In this document: positions 816-28,504 of the stretch, in pieces
Layout: each line of letters starts with the position of its first letter
How positions within the stretch are numbered: the stretch's first letter is position 1
DNA from: Actinomycetales bacterium
GTDB lineage: Bacteria > Actinomycetota > Actinomycetes > Nanopelagicales > Nanopelagicaceae
NCBI GenBank assembly: GCA_018969585.1
Contig: JAGWYB010000009.1
Location: forward strand, 1-44,714
DNA: 44,714 nt
Direction of reading: 5' to 3'
The notes under the pieces: generated by a model
What the model was told of the DNA's origin: nothing
The model's input: the letters and a program-made list of their open reading frames with translations, nothing else
Database searches by the model: none
Made by a program: the position numbers and the translations under genes

Positions 816-1967
816 ATGGCTAAAATCGTTCGCGCTCAACCTTTAGGTGAGTTAAGAAAACGTAAAAGTCTTAAATGGCGTTATTATGAGAAAGAAGTTC
901 TACCGCTGCCGGTAGCAGAAATGGATTTCCCAATCGCTGAGCCAATCAAAAATGCCCTCCGAGACATGATTGATCGTTCCGATACCGGTTATCTTGGCCC
1001 TTTTCCAGAACTTTTTGAATCTTTTCGAATTTTTTCAAATGAACTTTGGGACTGGAATCCGGACGTTTCGCAAATGCGGACTGCTACTGATGTTGGAGTT
1101 GGCGTTGTAGAAGTAATGCGTACATTGATACAGCCAGGAGATAAAGTTCTACTCAATTCGCCAATTTACGACAATATGTGGCGTTGGGTTACTGAAGTCA
1201 AAGCAGAATTAATTGATGTTCCTCTAAAGCGGAACCAACTCGAATACTCATTAGATTTAGAAGCTATAGAGTCGGCTTATCGAACCGGAGTTAAAGTTCA
1301 TTTGCTCTGTAGTCCACATAATCCGGTGGGAACAGTCTTCGATAGAGAATCACTTTCGAAATTAGCTGAGCTGGCTAAACATTATCAAGTCATAGTTATT
1401 AGCGATGAGATTCATGCGCCACTTACATTTGTAGAGCGAAAATTCATACCCTTCTTAAACGTATCTGATGCTGCTCGGGAAATTGGTATTACTGTCACAA
1501 GCGCAAGTAAGACCTTTAATCTTGCTGGACTAAAGTGCGCCTTGATTATTACAGAGAATGTGGCTCTCAAAGAGAAAATTAACGCAATGCCAATCTCAGT
1601 TGGATATCGGGCTTCTCTTTTCGGGGCAGTAGCGGCAACTTCTGCGATGTCTGAATGCAGTGAGTGGCTTGCCGGAGTACTTTTAACTCTTGATGAAAAT
1701 CGAAAATTAATCAAAAAAATAATTGACACCAAAATCCCTTCAATTGGATATCGAATACCTGATTTTGGCTATCTTGCTTGGTTGGACTTAACTGCTCTAG
1801 GACTGGGTGATGATCCGGCGAAAGTACTCCTCGAGCGAGGTAAGTTGGCCGTCAATGGTGGACATATGTATGGTCCTGAACACTCATCTTTTATTAGATT
1901 TAACTTTGGCACTAGTCCAGAGATAATTACTGAAGCTTTCGAACGAATTTTGCAGACCAATGGCTGA
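816..1967 (+). CDS. PatB/MalY-type PLP aminotransferase / cystathionine beta-lyase
   Basis: Class I/II fold PLP enzyme of 383 aa, most like the MalY/PatB C-S lyase group, which releases homocysteine, ammonia and pyruvate from cystathionine or acts as an aminotransferase. Visible signatures are the N-terminal KWRYY and LPLPVAEMDFP segment, SPHNPVGTVF (Asn binding PLP), SDEIHAPL (PLP-pyridine Asp) and SASKTFNLAGLK with the Schiff-base Lys at K232. The ATG at 816 is preferred to the in-frame TTG at 813. The last 8 bases overlap the FAD oxidoreductase gene, so the two are probably translationally coupled. Whether the main activity is lyase or aminotransferase cannot be decided here. Confidence 0.85.
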   Translation: MAKIVRAQPLGELRKRKSLKWRYYEKEVLPLPVAEMDFPIAEPIKNALRDMIDRSDTGYLGPFPELFESFRIFSNELWDWNPDVSQMRTATDVGVGVVEVMRTLIQPGDKVLLNSPIYDNMWRWVTEVKAELIDVPLKRNQLEYSLDLEAIESAYRTGVKVHLLCSPHNPVGTVFDRESLSKLAELAKHYQVIVISDEIHAPLTFVERKFIPFLNVSDAAREIGITVTSASKTFNLAGLKCALIITENVALKEKINAMPISVGYRASLFGAVAATSAMSECSEWLAGVLLTLDENRKLIKKIIDTKIPSIGYRIPDFGYLAWLDLTALGLGDDPAKVLLERGKLAVNGGHMYGPEHSSFIRFNFGTSPEIITEAFERILQTNG

Positions 1968-19021: not shown

Positions 19022-19588
19022 TCATTTTTTAGGCAGACTTACCAGGGTCTCTTGGACCATATCCTTGAGAAGTTTCTTATCGACTTTCCAATCATTAGGA
19101 ATTCTTACGGTTTTTTTATTTACTTCGTATCCTGCAAGCCGATTTTTTAACTTGCTGAGTACTTTTGGGTTCCACGGAGCTATCAAAATATGCTTTTTTG
19201 CAAAGCCCAGTCCAAACACATATTTATCACCCAGTTTAAGCATCGGTTGATTCCAGGCTACAACAAGCTTTAGTTTAGGGTGACTACTTTTTATCGCTGA
19301 AAAAATTTCCTTAGCTTTTTTCGCCTGATTTTTATCTAATGATTCGAAAAGCTCTTTGGGGGTCTCAAAGCGTCGCGAAGATTTGGAGCCTTTCGTAAAC
19401 ATAACTAAGGCATTTGCGTGTGCTTGACTGAAGCCAAAATTTTCTTTAAGGAATGCAATTTGTTCTGGGTATTTTTTTTCTTTCACTTTTTTCATCTGAG
19501 AGAACCAGTAACTCATAGGCTCTCCATATCGTTTCTCGATTGCAGGAAAGTGAGATTCTCTCTTCGAGCGATCAACTTTATCTGCCAT
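19022..19588 (-). CDS. DUF4287 / DUF1801-like protein
   Basis: 188 aa, strongly lysine-rich. Residues about 22-63 (MSYWFSQMKK, then YPEQIAFLKENFGFSQAHANALV) resemble DUF4287, a short helical domain often with a fixed YWF-like motif. The C-terminal half (about 75-185) has VVAWNQPMLKLGDKYVFGLGFAKKHILIAPW, which resembles the DUF1801/YdhG fold. The combination of the two domains is known in actinobacteria, but no biochemical role is established. ATG 19588 overlaps the orn stop (TAATG). Function not assigned. Confidence 0.72.
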   Translation of the reverse strand: MADKVDRSKRESHFPAIEKRYGEPMSYWFSQMKKVKEKKYPEQIAFLKENFGFSQAHANALVMFTKGSKSSRRFETPKELFESLDKNQAKKAKEIFSAIKSSHPKLKLVVAWNQPMLKLGDKYVFGLGFAKKHILIAPWNPKVLSKLKNRLAGYEVNKKTVRIPNDWKVDKKLLKDMVQETLVSLPKK

Positions 19589-20142
19589 TAGGGAGCCTTT
19601 TGAAAAATTGTAGATCGGTAATAATCTAGCTCGTCAATTGAATCTCTGATATCACCTAGGGCTCTGTGATTTCCTTCTTTGGCTGGTGCAGCAAAATAAG
19701 TTTTTGGATACCAACGACGAGCAAGTTCCTTTATTGTAGAAACATCGATAGTGCGATAGTGAAGAAATGAATTCAACTTAGGAAGATCGCGAGCAATGAA
19801 CATACGATCCATATAAACTGAATTTCCCGCCAATGGCGATTTACCGGGCGTAACTTCGTACTTGGTTAGGTAATCGTAAATAGCTTGGTCCGCCTCTTCT
19901 AGAGTGCAACCATTAGGTATCTCCAGCAGTAGTCCCGATTCTTGATGCATGCTCCGGACTACCTCGTTCATCCCATCTAGTTTTGCTTGGTCGCACCGGA
20001 TTACTTTGTCGACTCCCTCCCCGATCACATTTAACTGCGCATCGGTTATCAGAACGGCGATCTCCACCAAAGCATCCCGCTCAGTATTTAACCCAGTCAT
20101 CTCGCAATCGACCCAAACAAGGAAAGGTAAGTCGCTGCCCAT
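19588..20142 (-). CDS. orn: Oligoribonuclease
   Basis: 3'-5' exoribonuclease that degrades 2-5-nt RNAs and pGpG, ending RNA turnover. 184 aa, DEDDh family: D12 and E14 in WVDCEMTGL, the YRTIDVSTIKELARRWYP segment with the third Asp, and NHRALGDIRDSIDEL with the catalytic His and last Asp. This length and arrangement are standard for Orn in actinobacteria and proteobacteria. ATG 20142 is 7 nt after TAGACT, with no Shine-Dalgarno. It is divergent from pstC. Confidence 0.95.
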   Translation of the reverse strand: MGSDLPFLVWVDCEMTGLNTERDALVEIAVLITDAQLNVIGEGVDKVIRCDQAKLDGMNEVVRSMHQESGLLLEIPNGCTLEEADQAIYDYLTKYEVTPGKSPLAGNSVYMDRMFIARDLPKLNSFLHYRTIDVSTIKELARRWYPKTYFAAPAKEGNHRALGDIRDSIDELDYYRSTIFQKAP

Positions 20143-20149
20143 GCGGATA

Positions 20150-20155
20150 AGTCTA
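20150..20155 (-). promoter_or_regulatory. -10 box of orn, leaderless
   Basis: TAGACT on the minus strand ends 7 nt before the orn ATG at 20142. Confidence 0.45.
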
Positions 20156-20168
20156 TTGAAGCCTCAAT

Positions 20169-20201
20169 CTTCACCCTTAGTTCACCTTCTCTTAACCTTG
20201 A
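20169..20201 (+). promoter_or_regulatory. PHO box of pstC: three 11-nt direct repeats
   Basis: Three consecutive 11-nt units, CTTCACCCTTA, GTTCACCTTCT and CTTAACCTTGA, match the Streptomyces PhoP repeat pattern G(T/G)TCAYC with only small changes. The array ends 33 nt before the pstC GTG and is well placed to recruit a PhoP/RegX3-type response regulator under phosphate limitation. Confidence 0.72.
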
Positions 20202-20234
20202 ATACCCCCTATCCCCGTCACTTCAGCCCAAGAT

Positions 20235-21224
20235 GTGCAAGTGAATTCGACCCATCAGGTGCCGAAAGTACTTCCTGAACCACGTGAAATAACGACTGTT
20301 CCTAGAATCTCTGACCGAATCTTTCGCGGAATTGTTACAACCGGTGGACTTTCCACGCTCGCAATTCTCGCTCTAATTGCTTTCTTCCTAGTGTTCAATG
20401 GCTTTGAAGTGATTAGAGATGAAGGTCTTCGATTCTTAACCGGTTTTGATTGGATGGACGCAATTCCTGATGAAGGTATCGCTGCAACTTACGGTATCGG
20501 CGCGATGCTTTACGGAACCCTAGTAATTGGATTACTAGCAATCATTTTTGGAGTTCCGATTGCTGTAGGAGCTGCACTTTTCCTCTCTTATTACGCGCCC
20601 GAATGGATCAAACGCCCAATGGTTGTAGTAATTGATGTTATGGCTGCGATTCCTTCTGTGGTGTTTGGACTCTGGGGCTATTTCATATTGATGCCGCATG
20701 CGGAATATTGGGCGAAATTAATTCATAAGTATCTTGGATTTATTCCGATATTTGATATGCCAGCGCCTGCTTACTCTCGCTCGCCATTTATTGCTGGCTT
20801 AGTGCTAGCAATCATGATTATTCCAATTGTGGCTTCAATTTCGCGCGAAGTTTTTGCGCAAACTCCACCCGATCGAATTCAAGCCGCATATGCGCTTGGC
20901 GCAACTAAATGGGCGATGATCAAAGCGGTGGTCTTTCCGTATGGAATTGGTGGCGTAATTGGTGGCGCAATGCTGGGTCTTGGTAGAGCGTTAGGTGAGA
21001 CAGTTGCTGTTTATACAGTTTTGAATTTGGTTTATGACATTCGAATTGAAATATTGTTAAGTGCCGGCGGATCTGTGGCATCAATGATTGTAAATAAATT
21101 TGGCGAAGCGGATGCAATAGAGCTCCGGGCACTTATGGCGGCAGGCTTTGTACTCTTTGTAGTCACCTTAATAGTTAATTTTATTGCGAACGCCATTATT
21201 AATCGAACAGCAAGGAGAGGTTAA
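20235..21224 (+). CDS. pstC: Phosphate ABC transporter permease
   Basis: First membrane subunit of the high-affinity phosphate importer. 329 aa with about six membrane segments, the first near residues 35-55. The cytoplasmic coupling loop is visible as REVFAQTPPDRIQAAYALGATKW, followed by PYGIGGVIGGAMLGLGRALGETVAVY, the conserved PstC end of that loop. Start taken at GTG 20235; a nearby ATG at 20233 is out of frame. The stop overlaps the pstA ATG (TAATG). Preceded by the PHO box at 20169. Confidence 0.94.
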   Translation: MQVNSTHQVPKVLPEPREITTVPRISDRIFRGIVTTGGLSTLAILALIAFFLVFNGFEVIRDEGLRFLTGFDWMDAIPDEGIAATYGIGAMLYGTLVIGLLAIIFGVPIAVGAALFLSYYAPEWIKRPMVVVIDVMAAIPSVVFGLWGYFILMPHAEYWAKLIHKYLGFIPIFDMPAPAYSRSPFIAGLVLAIMIIPIVASISREVFAQTPPDRIQAAYALGATKWAMIKAVVFPYGIGGVIGGAMLGLGRALGETVAVYTVLNLVYDIRIEILLSAGGSVASMIVNKFGEADAIELRALMAAGFVLFVVTLIVNFIANAIINRTARRG

Positions 21225-22273
21225 TGGCGACAATTTCTGTTGTGCCGAGCAAGCCATGGCGTCCGAAACTTAGCCGCGTCTGGCCCGACATTCTTGGCGC
21301 GCTTTTCACGGCACTTTCTAGCGTCGCAATCGTGGCAGTGACTCCCTTAAAGGGCCGACTGGGATTCTCAATCACATTGATTGTCATGGCGGTTATTACT
21401 TCAGCTTCTATCAGCTGGCTTAGGCGCGATCGAAAAGCGGCACTCAACAGCGTAAGCACGGTCTTTGTGTATGTGGCAGCCGCTTTCGTGATAATTCCAC
21501 TTGCATCTCTACTTTTTGAAATAGTTAGCAAAGGCATAGTTGGCTTCTCATTTGGAATTTTCACCAAAGATATGTCATTGACATCCGCAGATTCTCCGTT
21601 AAGCGAAGGTGGTCTACTCCACGCGGTAATTGGAACTTTGTATATCGTTTTACTCGCCACCGTAATCAGCACTCCGGTAGGCTTCTTAGCCTCTTTATAC
21701 ATTGTCGAAGTACAAGGTCGCTTCGCCTCACTCGTTAGATTTTTTGTTCAAGCAATGAGTGGCGTGCCATCGATTGTGGCAGGTCTTTTTATTTATGCTG
21801 TTTGGATGATTGGTTTAGGAAACAGTTATAACGTAGCCGCTGGTGCGGGTGCTCTAGCAATTCTAATGATTCCGACGGTGGCTCGAACTGCAGAGGAAGT
21901 TCTCAAGTTAATTCCAAACGATCTTCGTGAAGCTGGGCTAGCCCTGGGAGCCACACAGTGGCGGACTGTTGCGATGATAATTCTTCCTGCTGCTAAAAGC
22001 GGACTTGTTACAGCAATTATTCTGGGAATTGCCCGTGTGGCTGGGGAAACAGCTCCTCTTCTCTTGACACTGGGCGGTGCTGATGCCATCAATTTAAATC
22101 CTTTTGAAGGTAATAGTTCAGCTCTTCCGTTCTATGTATGGAAAAACTATTCATTAGGCAACCCGGAATCAATTCAGAGAGCCTGGCTTGGCGTGTTCGT
22201 TCTAATGATTATGGTTTTCATGTTTTTCTCGCTCGCACGATATTTTGGACGGGCGAAAGGTGCTAACAGATGA
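21224..22273 (+). CDS. pstA: Phosphate ABC transporter permease
   Basis: Second membrane subunit of the Pst importer. 349 aa, longer than the usual 280-300 aa because of an N-terminal region of about 70 residues with two additional hydrophobic segments before the core. The core shows [16 protein letters not shown], the coupling loop [26 protein letters not shown] and [22 protein letters not shown] 5 nt upstream is a strong ribosome binding site. ATG overlaps the pstC stop, and its own stop overlaps pstB (ATGA). Confidence 0.94.
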
Positions 22274-23199
22274 TTAATGAAGAAAACCGAGAGATGAGGG
22301 ATAGCATGAGCAAGATAGAAACTACGTCGGCCGCCTCAAGTGGAGCCGATATTAGAAAAGAAGTAAAGCCCTCTTCGCTGGCGAGTGTTGCAGCTTCGCA
22401 TGAGAGCAAAAGTAAGTCACGAGAGATTCGGGACGGAGTGGGTTTAGAAGCAAGAGGTATTCACGCTTGGTTTGGTAAAAAATTAGTACTTGAAGATATC
22501 TCATTGGACTTCGCTCCAGGAACTGTAACTGCGCTCATCGGACCATCAGGTTGTGGAAAATCTACATTTATTCGTATTCTCAATCGAATGCATGAATTTA
22601 TTCCAACCGCAGCTTTAGCTGGTGATGTTCTTCTTGGCGGAAAAGATATTTACGGTTCAGGAGTAGACGTCACAAAGATTCGACTGAAAATCGGCATGGT
22701 ATTTCAGAAACCAAATCCGTTTCCCTCTATGACAATTCGGGAGAATGTCTTATCGGGACTTCGATTGGCCCAAATTAAGCTTTCTAATGAAGACGAATTG
22801 CTGGAAAGTTGTCTACTTCGCGCTGGGCTTTGGGATGAAGTTAAAGATCGGCTCAATGAATACGGCGGCGCACTTTCGGGCGGCCAACAGCAAAGACTCT
22901 GTATCGCACGATCTCTTGCCGTAAATCCTAAAGTCCTCTTGATGGATGAACCTTGTTCTGCGCTAGATCCCGGTTCAACTCTGAGAATTGAGGAGACTAT
23001 TCGAGAGCTTTCTGAGAGTATTTCAATAGTAATAGTTACTCATAATATGCAACAGGCGGCGCGAGTTTCCGACTACACCGGATTTTTCCTCTCTGATGGC
23101 GGTCCTGGCAAATTAATTGAGGTAGGTAGTACATCCGAGATTTTCTCAACGCCAAAAGATCAGCGAACTCTCGACTATGTAACCGGAAGGTTTGGATAG
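22270..23199 (+). CDS. pstB: Phosphate ABC transporter ATP-binding protein
   Basis: ATPase of the Pst importer. 309 aa: Walker [10 protein letters not shown] (near residue 92), Q-loop [10 protein letters not shown], signature [14 protein letters not shown], Walker [14 protein letters not shown] and switch His in VTHNMQQ. The conserved ATPase begins near residue 58, so ATG 22270 gives a hydrophilic N-terminal extension of about 57 residues. An ATG further in (MSKIETT, near residue 14) could be the true start; 22270 keeps the ATGA overlap with pstA. pstS follows after a 120-nt gap with its own regulatory repeats. Confidence 0.93.
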
Positions 23200-23218
23200 C
23201 TGAAGAATGTCACTAATT

Positions 23219-23251
23219 GTTAACCTAAATTAAATGAATCATTAACTCTGT
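23219..23251 (+). promoter_or_regulatory. PHO-box-like repeats before pstS
   Basis: Units GTTAACCTAAA, TTAAATGAATC and ATTAACTCTGT at 11-nt steps. The first and third (22 nt apart) share the TTAAC core with the pstC and ppk arrays; the middle one is degenerate. The array lies about 70 nt before the pstS start and suggests a second PhoP-controlled promoter for the binding protein. Confidence 0.5.
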
Positions 23252-23319: not shown

Positions 23320-24504
23320 GTGTTATTAAAGAAAAGAATGGCGAAAATTGCAATCGCCACGTCAGCTCTACTTGTCATAGCCTCTCCGGCATTTGCAGGA
23401 ACAATAAATGGTAGCGGCGCAACATTTGCCGCTCCGCTGATTGATTCCTGTAAGGTAGATTTCGCCAAAGATTCCGGACACACCGTTAATTACACAGGTG
23501 GTGGCTCTTCCAAAGGTCGTTCCGATTTCGCTGGAAACTTGGTCGATTTTGCCGGTTCTGATGCGCCTTATTCCTCGGGAGCTCCAGCAAATCTAATTTA
23601 CGTCCCAGTCTATGCGGCTCCAATCGCGATGATTTACAACTTACCGACTGTTAAAGAGTCTATTTATTTATCGCCGGCATCCATTGCAAAAATCTTTTCT
23701 GGCTATATCACTAACTGGAACCATCCTGACCTAGCTAAAGATAATGAGAGAACCGTTAAAACTCCGGTTTTCAAAACAAAGACTTCGCAGGTTAAAGACA
23801 AGAATGGCAAGATGGTAACGAAGAAAGTTCCTGTACTTGATAAAAAAGGTAAGCCGGTAATCGCAAGGTACAACACAAAGACTGTGAATATCGATCTACC
23901 AAATGAACAAATTACAGTCTGGTACAGAACGGATGGTTCAGGCACTTCGGAAAACTTCGCTAAGTATCTTCGCGGCGCAAATGAGGCAACTGGCAATGCA
24001 AGCCTCTGGCCCAAGGCTGCTTCTTCAACGTTCTCGAATAGTACTCCGAACAACATTTCGACATTTTTCAACTTCCAAGGAGCTTCTGGTTCAGCTGCCG
24101 TAACTGCTGGAGTTGCCGGTAAGGTCGGTTCGATAACTTATGCAGAACTAAGCTTCGCTCTTGACAACAAACTTCCCGTTGCTTATGTTCAAAATGCTGC
24201 CGGAGAGTTTGTAGCGCCGGACGCCGCAGGAACTTCAGCCTTCCTTGGAGGTGGAACCATTAATGCGGATGGAACCGTGCAGGTAGATTATGCCAAAGCT
24301 ATTCCAGGCGCTTATTCACTCGGTACGGCTTCGTATGCTCTCGCATATGAGTCTGGCAAAACAGCTGAGAAACAGGGAATCGTAAAAGATTTCCTAACTT
24401 ATGTCTTAGAGAAATGCCCATCTAAGTATCCTGAAAAGGGCTTTGCTCAGATAACTGGTCCGCTTGCCACAAAAGCAAAAGAGCAGATCGCAAAAATCAA
24501 GTAG
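23320..24504 (+). CDS. pstS: Phosphate-binding protein of the Pst transporter
   Basis: Extracytoplasmic phosphate receptor. 394 aa. Residues 1-26 form a signal peptide (KKRMAKIAIATSALLVIASPAFA); no lipobox Cys is seen after it, so it may not be lipid-anchored. Phosphate-site motifs are GSGATFAAPL, the GGGSSKGRSDF loop, DFAGSDAPY and YRTDGSGTSENF. Residues about 148-190 are a Lys-rich insertion between NWNHPDLA and ITVWYRTDGSGT that ordinary PstS proteins lack. GTG 23320 is supported by AGGGGG 5 nt upstream. A strong terminator follows. Confidence 0.94.
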   Translation: MLLKKRMAKIAIATSALLVIASPAFAGTINGSGATFAAPLIDSCKVDFAKDSGHTVNYTGGGSSKGRSDFAGNLVDFAGSDAPYSSGAPANLIYVPVYAAPIAMIYNLPTVKESIYLSPASIAKIFSGYITNWNHPDLAKDNERTVKTPVFKTKTSQVKDKNGKMVTKKVPVLDKKGKPVIARYNTKTVNIDLPNEQITVWYRTDGSGTSENFAKYLRGANEATGNASLWPKAASSTFSNSTPNNISTFFNFQGASGSAAVTAGVAGKVGSITYAELSFALDNKLPVAYVQNAAGEFVAPDAAGTSAFLGGGTINADGTVQVDYAKAIPGAYSLGTASYALAYESGKTAEKQGIVKDFLTYVLEKCPSKYPEKGFAQITGPLATKAKEQIAKIK

Positions 24505-24571: not shown

Positions 24572-24615
24572 GTTAACTCTGGATTGAGGATTCGTTAATC
24601 CCGTATTCACATTTG
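24572..24615 (+). promoter_or_regulatory. PHO-box-like repeats before ppk
   Basis: Four 11-nt units in phase: GTTAACTCTGG, ATTGAGGATTC, GTTAATCCCGT and ATTCACATTTG. Units 1, 3 and 4 keep the (G/A)TTNA core. The array lies 18 nt before the ppk GTG, after the pstS terminator, so ppk has its own presumably phosphate-responsive promoter. Confidence 0.55.
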
Positions 24616-24632
24616 AGCGCCACCCTTGCCTA

Positions 24633-26714
24633 GTGAGACAAAATTTTCACCACGTTAAACCAGAGAACCTTATTGATCGCGAATTGAGCTGGCTAGCTTT
24701 CAACACCCGCGTACTTGAGCTCGCGGAAGATAAATCTCTACCACTATTGGAAAGAATTCGCTTTCTCGCAATAACTTCATCGAATCTAGATGACTTTTTT
24801 ATGATTAGAGTTGCATCAGTTAAATTGAAAATAGAGTCAGGAATTTCTAATGCTAATTCCGCTGGGCTAAGCGCGCAACAACAATTAGAGCAAATATTGG
24901 AAGAATCAAAAATTCTTGTTGAGAGACAGAATCGAGTATTTCATAATCAATTAATTCCAGAACTTGCTCAAAGAAATATTCACTTTGTGCATTGGCGAGA
25001 CCTAACTGGAATTGAACGGGATTATGTGAGTGATATATTTGCTGAGACTGTATTTCCAGTTTTGACTCCTTTGGCCGTAGACCCTACTCATCCTTTTCCT
25101 TATATTTCAGGTTTGTCTATCAGTCTTGCCGTGTTGGTAGAACATCCCGAGACCGAAGAGGAGTACTTCGCCCGCGTAAAGATTCCCAATATACTTCCGC
25201 GCTTTATTTCAACTCATCCGAATCAAAAAACAAGATTTATTCCATTAGAAGAATTAATCGCCGCACATTTGAATGAACTTTTTCCAGGTATGAAAATAGA
25301 AGATTACTACTCGTTTAGATTGACTCGAAATGAGGATTTGGAACTTGATGAAGACGAGAGTGAAAACTTATTGGAGACCATGGTGCAGGAGCTATCGAAG
25401 CGGCGATTTGGGCCTCCAGTAAGACTCGAAGTCGAAAGCGATATACAACCGTATTTGCTTGACCGGTTGGTTTCAGAATTAGAAATAGGAGAACGAGAGG
25501 TTTTCAAATATAAAGGTCCGTTAGATTTAACGGGACTTAATCAGATTGCTGACTTAGATTTACCAGAACTGAAGTTTAATTCATTTAAAAGCGCTGTTCC
25601 AAAACCACTACTAGCCAACGGTGAATTTGATGTCTCTACTTTCTTTGATCTTTTAAAGAATCACGAAATCCTTCTCCATCATCCATATCATTCTTTCACC
25701 TCAACCGTCGTGCAATTTCTTGAAGCGGCCGCTACTGATCCACATGTGCTAGCGATAAAGCAAACGCTTTATCGAACTTCAGGTGATTCACCGATAATTG
25801 AGGCGCTAATAGAAGCTGCCTCAGCCGGAAAACAGGTTTTGGCTGTAATTGAAATTCGTGCGAGATTTGATGAACTTGCAAATATGCGCTGGGCCGAAAA
25901 GCTCGAGGCTGCTGGCGTTCATGTCGTTTATGGCTTAATGGGGCTTAAAACTCATGCCAAGCTTTCACTTGTTGTCAGAAAGGAAGGTGAAAAAGTGCAG
26001 CGTTACTGTCACGTTGGGACTGGAAATTACAATCCTCGGACTGCTCGGCTTTATGAAGATTTAGGTTTACTTAGTTCAAATGAAGATTTATGCGACGACT
26101 TATCGCGACTGTTCAACCAACTTTCGGGATTTGTCAAAGATGAGGAATTTTCTAGATTGATTGTCGCGCCATATGGGATGAGAACTGGGCTCCTAGCCAA
26201 GATTTCAAAAGAGATCGCAGCGGCTCAGAACGGAATACCATCGGGGATTAGATTAAAGATTAACTCCTTAGTAGACGAGGAATTCATAGATAAGCTCTAC
26301 GAGGCTTCAATTGCCGGTGTGCCGATTGAAATTACTGTTAGAGGGATTTGCTCACTTGTACCTGGCATTCCTGGTAAATCAGATAACATTAAGGTGAATT
26401 CCTATTTAGGTAGGTTCCTGGAGCATTCACGAATATATAGCTTTCATAATGGCGGCGATCCAGAGTATTGGATTGGAAGCGCTGATCTCATGCAGCGAAA
26501 TTTAGATAGGCGTATCGAAACTCTGATTCGAATTGATTCAGCTGAGCACAAGCGTTATCTTCACGAATTACTTGAAATTTATAGCAGTGGAGCAATGAGC
26601 CACTGGAAAGGTCTTCAAGGAAACGTCTGGCAGAGAGTAACTCAAGATGAAAATCACGAAACGCTTCAAAATCTACATGACCAGCTCTTAGAGAGGTATG
26701 CAGATGACAGATAG
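24633..26714 (+). CDS. ppk: Polyphosphate kinase 1
   Basis: Reversibly makes polyphosphate from ATP. 693 aa, the full PPK1 length. N-terminal domain: ELSWLAFNTRVLELA and ITSSNLDDFFMIRVA; middle: DPTHPFPYISG. The two catalytic histidines of the phospholipase-D-like domains are readable as H460 (YCHVGTGNYNPRTA), the autophosphorylated residue, and H598 (FLEHSRIY). IEIRARFDE and SADLMQRNLDRRIE are further family motifs. GTG 24633 gives the expected N-terminus. Its end overlaps the mutT1-like gene by 17 nt, as in the mycobacterial ppk-mutT1 pair. Confidence 0.96.
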   Translation: MRQNFHHVKPENLIDRELSWLAFNTRVLELAEDKSLPLLERIRFLAITSSNLDDFFMIRVASVKLKIESGISNANSAGLSAQQQLEQILEESKILVERQNRVFHNQLIPELAQRNIHFVHWRDLTGIERDYVSDIFAETVFPVLTPLAVDPTHPFPYISGLSISLAVLVEHPETEEEYFARVKIPNILPRFISTHPNQKTRFIPLEELIAAHLNELFPGMKIEDYYSFRLTRNEDLELDEDESENLLETMVQELSKRRFGPPVRLEVESDIQPYLLDRLVSELEIGEREVFKYKGPLDLTGLNQIADLDLPELKFNSFKSAVPKPLLANGEFDVSTFFDLLKNHEILLHHPYHSFTSTVVQFLEAAATDPHVLAIKQTLYRTSGDSPIIEALIEAASAGKQVLAVIEIRARFDELANMRWAEKLEAAGVHVVYGLMGLKTHAKLSLVVRKEGEKVQRYCHVGTGNYNPRTARLYEDLGLLSSNEDLCDDLSRLFNQLSGFVKDEEFSRLIVAPYGMRTGLLAKISKEIAAAQNGIPSGIRLKINSLVDEEFIDKLYEASIAGVPIEITVRGICSLVPGIPGKSDNIKVNSYLGRFLEHSRIYSFHNGGDPEYWIGSADLMQRNLDRRIETLIRIDSAEHKRYLHELLEIYSSGAMSHWKGLQGNVWQRVTQDENHETLQNLHDQLLERYADDR

Positions 26715-27597
26715 TGTTATTCGAGGCGGCGGTAGTGTTGTTTGGCGCCGCGGTGAAGATGATAAATTAGAGATTGCTTTAATTCATCGGCCAAAATACA
26801 ACGATTGGACTATTCCAAAGGGCAAATGTGAAGATGGTGAGTCGCAAATTACTGCGGCTTTTCGCGAAACTATCGAAGAGACTGGATTTAAGGTTAAGTT
26901 TTCAAGATTTTTGGGAGATGTCGAATACCAGACGGATGAAGGTAAAAAACAGATAAGTTACTGGCGCGCAAAATTTCAAAAATCCGTGGGCTTGCCAATA
27001 GAAGGCGAAGTTGACGAAGTTCGATGGTTTGAAGTGAATAGTGCAGTTGAAAGAGTTTCCCATGATTCTGAGAAGGAAATAATTCAGAGATTTCTTGAAT
27101 CCGATCTAGATTCGAAAGTGTTGATACTACTTAGGCATTGTAAAGCGCTTGCCCGGACTGAATGGGAGGGAGATGATTCCAAGCGTCCACTCGATTCAGT
27201 TGGCTTGGAACAATCTGAACGCCTAATTCAGAATCTAATCCCTTTTGGAATCGAAGAAATTCACTCCTCAGATGCCGTTAGGTGTTACGAATCAATTAAC
27301 CCCTTGGCTAAATCTTTATCTCTAAATTACTTCTTTACCGACTCATTGAGTGAAATTGTTTATCAGAGAAAGCCTAATCGAGTCTTTAAATACATTGAGA
27401 GATTACTAGATAATTCGAACACAACTCTAATCTGTTCGCATAACCCAGTTTTGCCCCATTATCTTCAAAACAAATTAAATCGACAAGGTTTCAACGTAAA
27501 TGACACCTTTTTAAAGCCAGGTGACGCTTGGATAATTCACCATATCCAAAGAGAAATTCTTGCAGTCGATAAACTAAGCGCCCCGACTATTGCTTAA
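26698..27597 (+). CDS. mutT1: MutT1-like NUDIX hydrolase fused to histidine phosphatase domain
   Basis: 299 aa. Residues 1-135 are a NUDIX domain; the Nudix box runs from G42 to G63 (key residues G42, E48, R56, E57, E60, E61). Residues 140-299 form a histidine-phosphatase-like domain with LLRHCKA (R146, H147) and CSHNPVLP. This fusion is the layout of mycobacterial MutT1, which hydrolyses 8-oxo-(d)GTP and dinucleoside polyphosphates. Its position after ppk (17-nt overlap) matches the Rv2984-Rv2985 order in M. tuberculosis. ATG 26698 or 26704; GAGAGG lies upstream. It is convergent with ppx, 11-nt overlap. Confidence 0.88.
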   Translation: MQMTDSVIRGGGSVVWRRGEDDKLEIALIHRPKYNDWTIPKGKCEDGESQITAAFRETIEETGFKVKFSRFLGDVEYQTDEGKKQISYWRAKFQKSVGLPIEGEVDEVRWFEVNSAVERVSHDSEKEIIQRFLESDLDSKVLILLRHCKALARTEWEGDDSKRPLDSVGLEQSERLIQNLIPFGIEEIHSSDAVRCYESINPLAKSLSLNYFFTDSLSEIVYQRKPNRVFKYIERLLDNSNTTLICSHNPVLPHYLQNKLNRQGFNVNDTFLKPGDAWIIHHIQREILAVDKLSAPTIA

Positions 27598-28504
27598 TCC
27601 AATCCATCCATTTAAGCACTATCCCTTCACGCAACGCCCACGGACAAATCTCTAAACTTTCCACCTCTAAATTGCGCATTACTCCTTCAGCAATAAAAGC
27701 ACCCGCAACTATCTGGCGGGCTCTTGATTTAGAAACTCCCGGCAGCTCTCTTCGTTCATCTTCTGTCATCTCCGAGAGTTTGGGTAGTATCTTGCGCAAA
27801 CCATCGAGTTTCAATGACTTTCCGTCTCCGTCAGCCCAATCTCCAGTTAATCTAGCAAGCGTCCTTAGAGTTTTGCTGGTACCAATTGCCCTATCAGTAC
27901 TCTGGTGGCTCAATATATTTCCAATGATTTCCGCTAACTTAGATTCAATCTCGTCTCTAAGTTTTCTAATTGATTTCTTAGTAAAAGGATCTCCCTCTAG
28001 AAATTCTTTTGTAAGACGAGACGCGCCAAGAGGCAAAGAAATTGCGGAGTCTGGCGACTCATTAACTCCGACGGCCAATTCAAGAGAGCCGCCTCCAATG
28101 TCAATCATAAGAAGTCTTCCGCTTGACCATCCAAACCATCTGCGCGCTGCTAAGAAAGTTATCTGAGCTTCTTCTTCTCCAGACAAAACCTGTAGATCTA
28201 TATCAAACTCATCATTAATTAGATTAATGACATCACTACCGTTGCCGGCCTCTCGAAGCGCTGATGTTGCAAACGGCAAAAGCTGGGTGGCTTTTGCTCG
28301 CTTCATTTCGGATAGGCAAGATTTGATTGAGGATCTTAATTCCTCGATTCCTTCGGGTCTTATGAAGCCAGAAGAATCTATAAATTCTATTAAGCGTAAA
28401 TCTATTTTCAGATTTGAGGTCGGATTAGGTCTAGCCCCCGGATAGGTATCCACAACTTGTAAGTGGACCGTATTAGATCCAACGTCCAACACCCCTAAAC
28501 GCAT
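27587..28504 (-). CDS. ppx: Exopolyphosphatase, Ppx/GppA family
   Basis: Removes terminal phosphates from polyphosphate, or pppGpp 5'-phosphate in some members. 305 aa, single ASKHA-fold core without the C-terminal HD domain of E. coli Ppx, as in short actinobacterial homologues. Motifs: GVLDVGSNTVHLQ (phosphate 1), LSGEEEAQITFLAA with catalytic-type Glu, and MIDIGGGSLELAV (phosphate 2). ATG 28504 lies 6 nt after TAGAGT. It shares the intergenic region with the glycosyltransferase at 28612 and faces ppk-mutT1. Confidence 0.9.
   Translation of the reverse strand: MRLGVLDVGSNTVHLQVVDTYPGARPNPTSNLKIDLRLIEFIDSSGFIRPEGIEELRSSIKSCLSEMKRAKATQLLPFATSALREAGNGSDVINLINDEFDIDLQVLSGEEEAQITFLAARRWFGWSSGRLLMIDIGGGSLELAVGVNESPDSAISLPLGASRLTKEFLEGDPFTKKSIRKLRDEIESKLAEIIGNILSHQSTDRAIGTSKTLRTLARLTGDWADGDGKSLKLDGLRKILPKLSEMTEDERRELPGVSKSRARQIVAGAFIAEGVMRNLEVESLEICPWALREGIVLKWMDWIKQ

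Follow-up and report, generated by a model that had tools for sequence, protein, structure and literature searches.

The window, by which we mean the whole 44,714-nucleotide stretch of DNA considered here, is contig 11 of a draft Nanopelagicaceae (acI) genome of 1.1 Mb in 67 contigs that is 81% complete. The genes for the phosphate transporter, pstC, pstA, pstB and pstS, are followed on the same strand by ppk, which encodes polyphosphate kinase, and orn lies divergently on the other side of pstC (Table 1). Downstream of ppk lie two further genes (window 26698-28504), one with NUDIX and histidine-phosphatase domains and the other, convergent, of the ppx/gppA type; the region after ppk resembles the phosphate supercluster of Streptomyces. 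That supercluster, with pst, nudA and ppk, is similar to the arrangement in the window (PMC7866108, PMC4415409, PMC2605767). In one related genome (G092 contig 1, 387190-389228; L221 and L223) ppk is in two pieces with one in-frame TGA, which represents either decay or an assembly error.

Table 1. Genes and regulatory features of the pst-ppk region, in window coordinates
Feature	Coordinates	Strand	Basis
orn (oligoribonuclease), divergent neighbour	19588..20142	-	ORF with family match
Three-unit PHO box (11-nt direct repeats) before pstC	20169..20201	+	Sequence, genome scan, held-out motif, unit scores
ATACCCCCTAT, a degenerate in-phase fourth unit where the -35 would be expected	20202..20212	+	Weak, -3.4 bits
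Predicted -10 hexamer CAAGAT of pstC	20229..20234	+	xAxxxT at the same place in relatives
pstC	ORF 20235..21224; probable leaderless start GTG 20241	+	NCBIfam TIGR02138 above cut-off; in-frame start in relatives
pstA	21224..22273	+	TIGR00974, 243.5 bits, above cut-off
pstB	22270..23199	+	TIGR00972, 332.7 bits, just under the cut-off of 343.2
Second PHO-like array, before pstS (units 23208, 23219, weak 23230, 23241)	23208..23251	+	Relatives-trained motif, unit scores
pstS	23320..24504	+	PF12849 above cut-off; TIGR00975, 182 bits, under the cut-off of 205
Third PHO-like array, before ppk (units 24572, weak 24583, 24594, 24605)	24572..24615	+	Unit scores, motif rank, relatives
Predicted -10 hexamer CACCCT of leaderless ppk	24621..24626	+	GTG start 24633, 39 nt after unit 24594
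ppk (polyphosphate kinase)	24633..26714	+	Family match

The 92-nt gap between orn and the pstC ORF holds three units, CTTCACCCTTA (20169), GTTCACCTTCT (20180) and CTTAACCTTGA (20191), which follow one another end to end in exact 11-nt phase. The core of unit 2 is GTTCACC, those of units 1 and 3 are CTTCACC and CTTAACC, and the unit pooled from relatives is GTTCACCTTCC. Units 1, 2 and 3 score 7.9, 14.4 and 6.5 bits, respectively; on the same unit score the good units before pstS and ppk reach 4.0-6.0 each. The place of the degenerate fourth unit is often taken by TTCCAC in the aligned rows of relatives. An actinobacterial PHO box is recognized in sequence by at least two in-phase 11-nt direct repeats, by a GTTCACC-like core and by a location upstream of phosphate-starvation genes. 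The pstC array has three such repeats and such a core, and arrays of this kind precede pstC, pstS and ppk here and phoU in relatives. The PHO boxes of Streptomyces PhoP, including those of pst and ppk, are built of 11-nt units with a GTTCACC core (PMC4415409, PMC7866108, PMC2605767). The preliminary description had proposed three perfect-phase repeats with a TTCACC/TTAACC core, which is exactly what 20169-20201 contains, and had likened them to the Streptomyces PhoP repeat type, with which both the core and the unit length agree. It had also called this the strongest of four candidate arrays; by unit scores it is indeed the strongest, but the number of arrays that we find supported is three (pstC, pstS and ppk).

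The array is more than chance would produce. With up to three mismatches, TTMACC-N5-TTMACC-N5-TTMACC has two matches in the window, both at the pstC array and one of them without a mismatch, while dinucleotide shuffles of the window (n = 100) give a mean of 0.14 three-unit matches and only one of the 100 reaches two. The exact two-unit form, TTMACC-N5-TTMACC, occurs twice in the whole 1.1-Mb genome, both times at the pstC array. Looser patterns behave differently. Over the whole genome the two-unit pattern with up to two mismatches gave 267 matches against 474 for the reversed control, and a composite of array, -10 and start with up to three mismatches gave 41 against 74, so neither is in excess. 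The surroundings of three of the 41 composite matches were inspected (L224, L226 and L227); the match with the fewest mismatches, C32:16435, lies inside a coding ORF. Since neither looser pattern exceeds its reversed control, the genome gives no indication of a large regulon, and we claim no further regulon members.

PstC was detected in 106 of the 121 genomes of the family at an E value of 1e-40 or better, and the surroundings were retrieved as 107 loci in these 106 genomes; at 42 loci the related PstC has 57-94% identity in alignments that span most of its length. We scored 105 pstC upstream regions, the window's own included, and left out L113, whose PstC is partial, and L021, whose PstC lies at a contig end. 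Motif searches were run on non-redundant rows. An unsupervised search of 81 non-redundant pstC upstream regions, from which that of the window had been withheld, returned gATTTCACCtTTCGTTCACCTTCTgTTaACCtA, the same array, with a log-likelihood ratio of 1630 compared with 106-109 for shuffled input. The column similarity of this motif peaks at a lag of 11 (0.67) and is at most 0.29 at the other lags from 4 to 19. The held-out motif scores 36.3 bits at 20167-20199; the next independent place in the window reaches 2.5, and no simulated window (first-order Markov, n = 100) exceeds 10.8. The simulated maximum is surpassed by 96 of the 105 scored regions, with a family matrix that was trained on most of the regions it scores, only the window's site being held out, and whose training retained near relatives of that site (G115 and genus g2). 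Columns from 25 to 3 nt before the motif carry no more than 0.3 bits, those inside it up to 2.0.

Nine loci fall below the threshold. In seven of them (L036, L055, L059, L065, L069, L080 and L099) the box is found about 700-750 nt further up, phoU lies between this far box and pstC in every case and the box stands directly before phoU. The other two (L114 and L115) have a weak pair only and no good array. The exact pattern TTCACC-N4-GTTMACC is present at 120 places across the 121 genomes and its reversed control at 19 (manual count), and 65 occurrences of the pattern, at 55 of the 107 loci, are within 150 nt upstream of pstC. Thus the enrichment of the matrix upstream of phosphate genes, proposed earlier as a check, is borne out across the family, but within this genome only the strict pattern stands out.

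Twenty of the 120 places, all outside pstC upstream regions, were inspected. Three precede phoU, four precede a different pstS-pstC set beside orn, one precedes pstS, three precede a gene for a binding protein of the branched-chain-amino-acid type (family checked for L189), three precede other genes (L183, L192 and L194) and six are inside an ORF, which at L187 and L195 belongs to a gene that we take to be aroC-like. At the pairs L189:2309, L190:2110 and L191:1712 the binding-protein gene is downstream and a small response regulator is adjacent; wider Pho control, or nitrogen control, is possible there. The pair at L193:2026 of a related genome lies in an ORF and also 62 nt before a divergent 277-aa ORF (1131-1964, minus strand), a possible further member of the regulon.

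When the relatives are aligned on the array, a second conserved element emerges 62-67 nt from the motif start, in which A2, A5 and T6 carry 1.9, 1.6 and 1.8 bits. In a first count of hexamer-to-start distances, made with starts at or before the first aligned codon, 42 pairs were at 12 nt and eight at 13 nt, the next most frequent distance having six. Among 60 non-redundant rows with a good array, the window included, xAxxxT is at offset 62 in 59 and at any other offset from 45 to 74 in no more than eight; an in-frame start codon is at offset 74 in 52 rows and at offset 75 in seven. Hexamer and start codon occur together at this fixed spacing in 59 of the 60 pstC promoters. In the window the first base of CAAGAT is 12 nt from GTG 20241, with A2 and T6 present and T1 absent.

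Leaderless genes, which are common in Actinobacteria, are marked by a TANNNT-like signal some 12 nt upstream of the start codon (PMC3160421), and the pstC upstream region has a -10-like signal at that distance. Because a hexamer of this kind lies 12-13 nt before the start codon in 59 of 60 promoters, the pstC messages look leaderless, that of the window being predicted to be so, and GTG 20241 is probably the start of pstC rather than the position 20235 given by the ORF caller. What distinguishes these promoters from other leaderless genes of Actinobacteria is that the signal is joined to a RegX3-type array at fixed spacing and that the pstC hexamer usually lacks its first T. A search of open-licence literature found no paper with a title that joins leaderless genes and PHO boxes.

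We looked at the arrays before pstS and ppk in the same manner. A first motif search upstream of pstS was dominated by the end of pstB; its best site, 23165, falls within pstB, and more than 1,000 places ranked above the pstS array or level with it. Motifs trained on the pstB-pstS gap of 56 non-redundant of 69 relatives, the window's gap being absent, contain GTTCACC. The three best distinct places of the 33-nt gap motif in the window are before pstS (23213, 16.8), pstC (20174, 10.9) and ppk (24566, 9.7). For the 22-nt gap motif they are pstC (15.2) and pstS (14.2), followed by 42661 at 8.3, with ppk not among the best six. By pooled-unit score the pstS array ranks third and the ppk array fifth among two-unit places, a coding site coming between them, and their scores (10.9 and 9.9) lie amid coding sites of similar score (10.6 and 9.6), so that their support is a matter of position and of the relatives. 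The ppk upstream regions of relatives have two-unit pairs of varying strength. On these grounds the view that the weaker arrays before pstS and ppk are also of PHO type is supported at the level of sequence.

The distance of 39 nt between the GTG of ppk and unit 24594 recurs in several relatives. A hexamer-start pair is present in 15 of 23 non-redundant ppk regions (the window's included) and missing from eight; counted from where the best two-unit array starts, the -10 begins at 5 + 11k nt in 14 regions and at another phase in one. For phoU, 17 of 23 regions fit, nine at 4 + 11k and eight at 5 + 11k, and six are without a pair; this set has one extra start at another phase and includes some weak arrays (L170 scores -3.0). 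The different pstS set has a hexamer-start pair in one of two regions, at phase 6. Since orthologous promoters share ancestry, a register common to three promoters is suggestive and not proved.

The genome gives seven response-regulator matches. One of them, L003:5186-5869:- on contig 22, adjoins a histidine kinase that is truncated where the contig ends. Among solved proteins this regulator is nearest to M. tuberculosis RegX3 (2oqr) at 330.2 bits; with MtrA at 207.8, PrrA at 167.2 and M. tuberculosis PhoP at 162.3 it is closer to RegX3 than to any of these and we class it as RegX3-type. Within the stretch RVLTR...KIE of the DNA-binding domain, which presumably holds the recognition helix, five of 36 aligned positions differ from RegX3 (manual count). 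Streptomyces PhoP is the counterpart of RegX3. A second regulator, truncated at a contig end (contig 15), has M. tuberculosis PhoP as its nearest relative, and MtrA is encoded on contig 13 (L001:7466-8173; 350.8 bits, cut-off 300). PhoU was not found in the 81%-complete genome; the contig breaks off within the kinase gene, after which phoU follows in relatives. In L055 and L059 the RegX3 orthologue and its kinase are divergent from phoU-pstC, in L116 (G119 contig 26) a kinase and a RegX3-type regulator stand directly before pstC-pstA and run in the same direction, a second pstC being elsewhere (L032), and in L178-L180, from genomes of the same genus as ours that lack this PstC type, a PHO box separates the RegX3 orthologue from a divergent phoU. 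The preliminary description predicted a PhoP or RegX3-type regulator; the genome does encode a RegX3-type one, whose counterparts lie beside phoU-pstC in some relatives.

In mycobacteria SenX3-RegX3 and PhoU control phosphate genes, and in M. smegmatis SenX3-RegX3 mediates the induction of phoU1 (PMC12301784). Our regulator is closest to RegX3, the kinase-regulator pair is beside phoU in relatives and the induction of phoU1 is matched by the box before phoU in acI relatives. A departure from the mycobacteria is that in some acI relatives phoU-pstC is divergent from the kinase and regulator genes (L055 and L059) or the kinase-regulator pair precedes pstC (L116). With the PhoP boxes of S. coelicolor and S. 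lividans the window shares 11-nt direct repeats with a GTTCACC core before pst and ppk. In Streptomyces the pst box precedes pstS and consists of two units, which in S. lividans fall between -141 and -113 (PMC2605767), whereas the strongest box of the window has three units and is before pstC, pstS follows pstB with an array of its own and the start is predicted to be leaderless.

We consider it very probable, judging from the sequence, that the array is the operator-promoter of pstCAB and is read at low phosphate by the RegX3-type regulator of contig 22. At low phosphate a kinase of the SenX3/PhoR type would phosphorylate this regulator, monomers of which would bind the 11-nt units in head-to-tail order, along one face of the DNA and upstream of the -10 CAAGAT. 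This -10 is without a good -35 of its own; the bound regulator would recruit RNA polymerase, and transcription would start at or next to GTG 20241 to give a leaderless pstC message. The same regulator would read the weaker pstS and ppk arrays, and we propose that phosphate uptake and polyphosphate storage would consequently rise together. Activation is not the only possible role, given that deletion of the pstS PHO boxes in S. lividans led to constitutive, PhoP-independent expression (PMC2605767).

A different regulator may be envisaged. MtrA is encoded in the genome and, like RegX3-type regulators, recognizes short direct repeats of 11-nt period; were it the main reader of the array, or were it to share the array with the RegX3-type regulator, pst would be tied to growth and not only to phosphate. 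The published Streptomyces MtrA site consists of K-T-R-A-C-C and G-T-K-A-C-N, five nt apart (PMC5650626), the third unit in many relatives is CGTAACC and Streptomyces MtrA is stated to regulate phosphate metabolism (PMC12323332). Nevertheless, the strongest units have the GTTCACC core reported for PhoP (PMC4415409) and not GTAACC, the array follows pst, phoU and ppk, and in some relatives it is the RegX3-type gene that lies beside phoU-pstC or pstC, with mtrA not seen there in the four translated loci. We therefore regard a leading or shared role of MtrA as unlikely.

The neighbourhood of orn raises the question of which gene the array serves, for the orn ORF starts 26 nt from the array and a divergent orn is within 400 nt of pstC in 88 of the 107 loci. 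Against a role at orn, seven relatives in which pstC comes after phoU, with no orn within 400 nt, have the box before phoU, the -10 and the start-codon spacing are directed towards pstC, and with other transporter types the box is still before the transporter, though orn is present too. That the array belongs to orn rather than pstC thus appears very improbable. We give still less credence to a chance repeat or a remnant without present function. Short motifs of this sort are frequent by chance at looser settings, yet the shuffle expectation of 0.14 at up to three mismatches, the contrast in column conservation between up to 2.0 bits inside the motif and 0.3 or less from 25 to 3 nt before it, the held-out motif score and the conservation in the family all contradict it. 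Regulation of pstCAB by the RegX3-type regulator remains the preferred reading.

The history of the operon merits comment. In a tree of 43 chosen rows the PstC of the source genome groups with that of G115 (genus g17) inside the g2 group and not with its own genus. Orn (37 chosen rows) also groups inside g2, where Orn of G115 does not, and its own genus is apart; the Orn branch of the source genome is long and its placement was flagged as unsure. The regulator is like that of its own genus (86-91% identity, compared with 70-73% in other named groups) and ppk has its nearest matches in own-genus genomes (63-69%, compared with no more than 62% elsewhere; ppk was present in 24 of the 36 genomes searched). 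Contamination as the origin of the window's contig, a concern raised by the grouping of PstC and Orn, is disfavoured by genome G121 (locus L117), whose PstC and regulator are each 94% identical to those of the source genome, and by the own-genus-like ppk. The same two observations favour, and do not prove, transfer of the orn-pst segment (window 19588-21224), which was probably acquired horizontally. With PstC and Orn grouping with other genera the operon is probably an acquisition, whose fit to the resident regulator we assume; since PstC is patchy across genera, exchange may be common. At L181:2502, L182:2433, L185:1060 and L186:2286, all of the same genus as the source genome but lacking its PstC type, a different pstS-pstC set (transporter families checked for L181 only) occupies the same orn site behind a PHO box, an apparent exchange of transporter type behind one operator. 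Trees and gene order together give the impression that the PHO box travels or persists with whichever transporter occupies the orn site.

A stricter rule can be formulated for the core Pho promoters of the acI freshwater actinobacteria, which we advance tentatively and with rather more doubt than conviction. RegX3-type units, -10 and leaderless start codon would share a single 11-nt register, with the -10 at 5 or 4 + 11k from the unit start and the start codon 12 nt on. Given such a register, the dose of regulator would be set only by the number of whole helical turns from array to promoter, and the module would be portable, unrelated Pst transporters being swapped in behind it at the orn locus.

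The evidence supports the pstC array as a real and conserved operator of the RegX3/PhoP type, ordinary in kind. No paper on the Pho regulon of Nanopelagicales was found by title in the part of the open-licence literature searched, and as far as that search extends a PHO-type operator is new for this order. Compared with the preliminary description the promoter model is sharper, a -10 hexamer and a leaderless start having been added. The promoter rule makes the start sites, including the corrected start of pstC, directly testable in cultured strains, and an operator of the RegX3 type that is conserved before pstC, pstS, ppk and phoU may serve as a ready marker of phosphate stress in lake metatranscriptomes.
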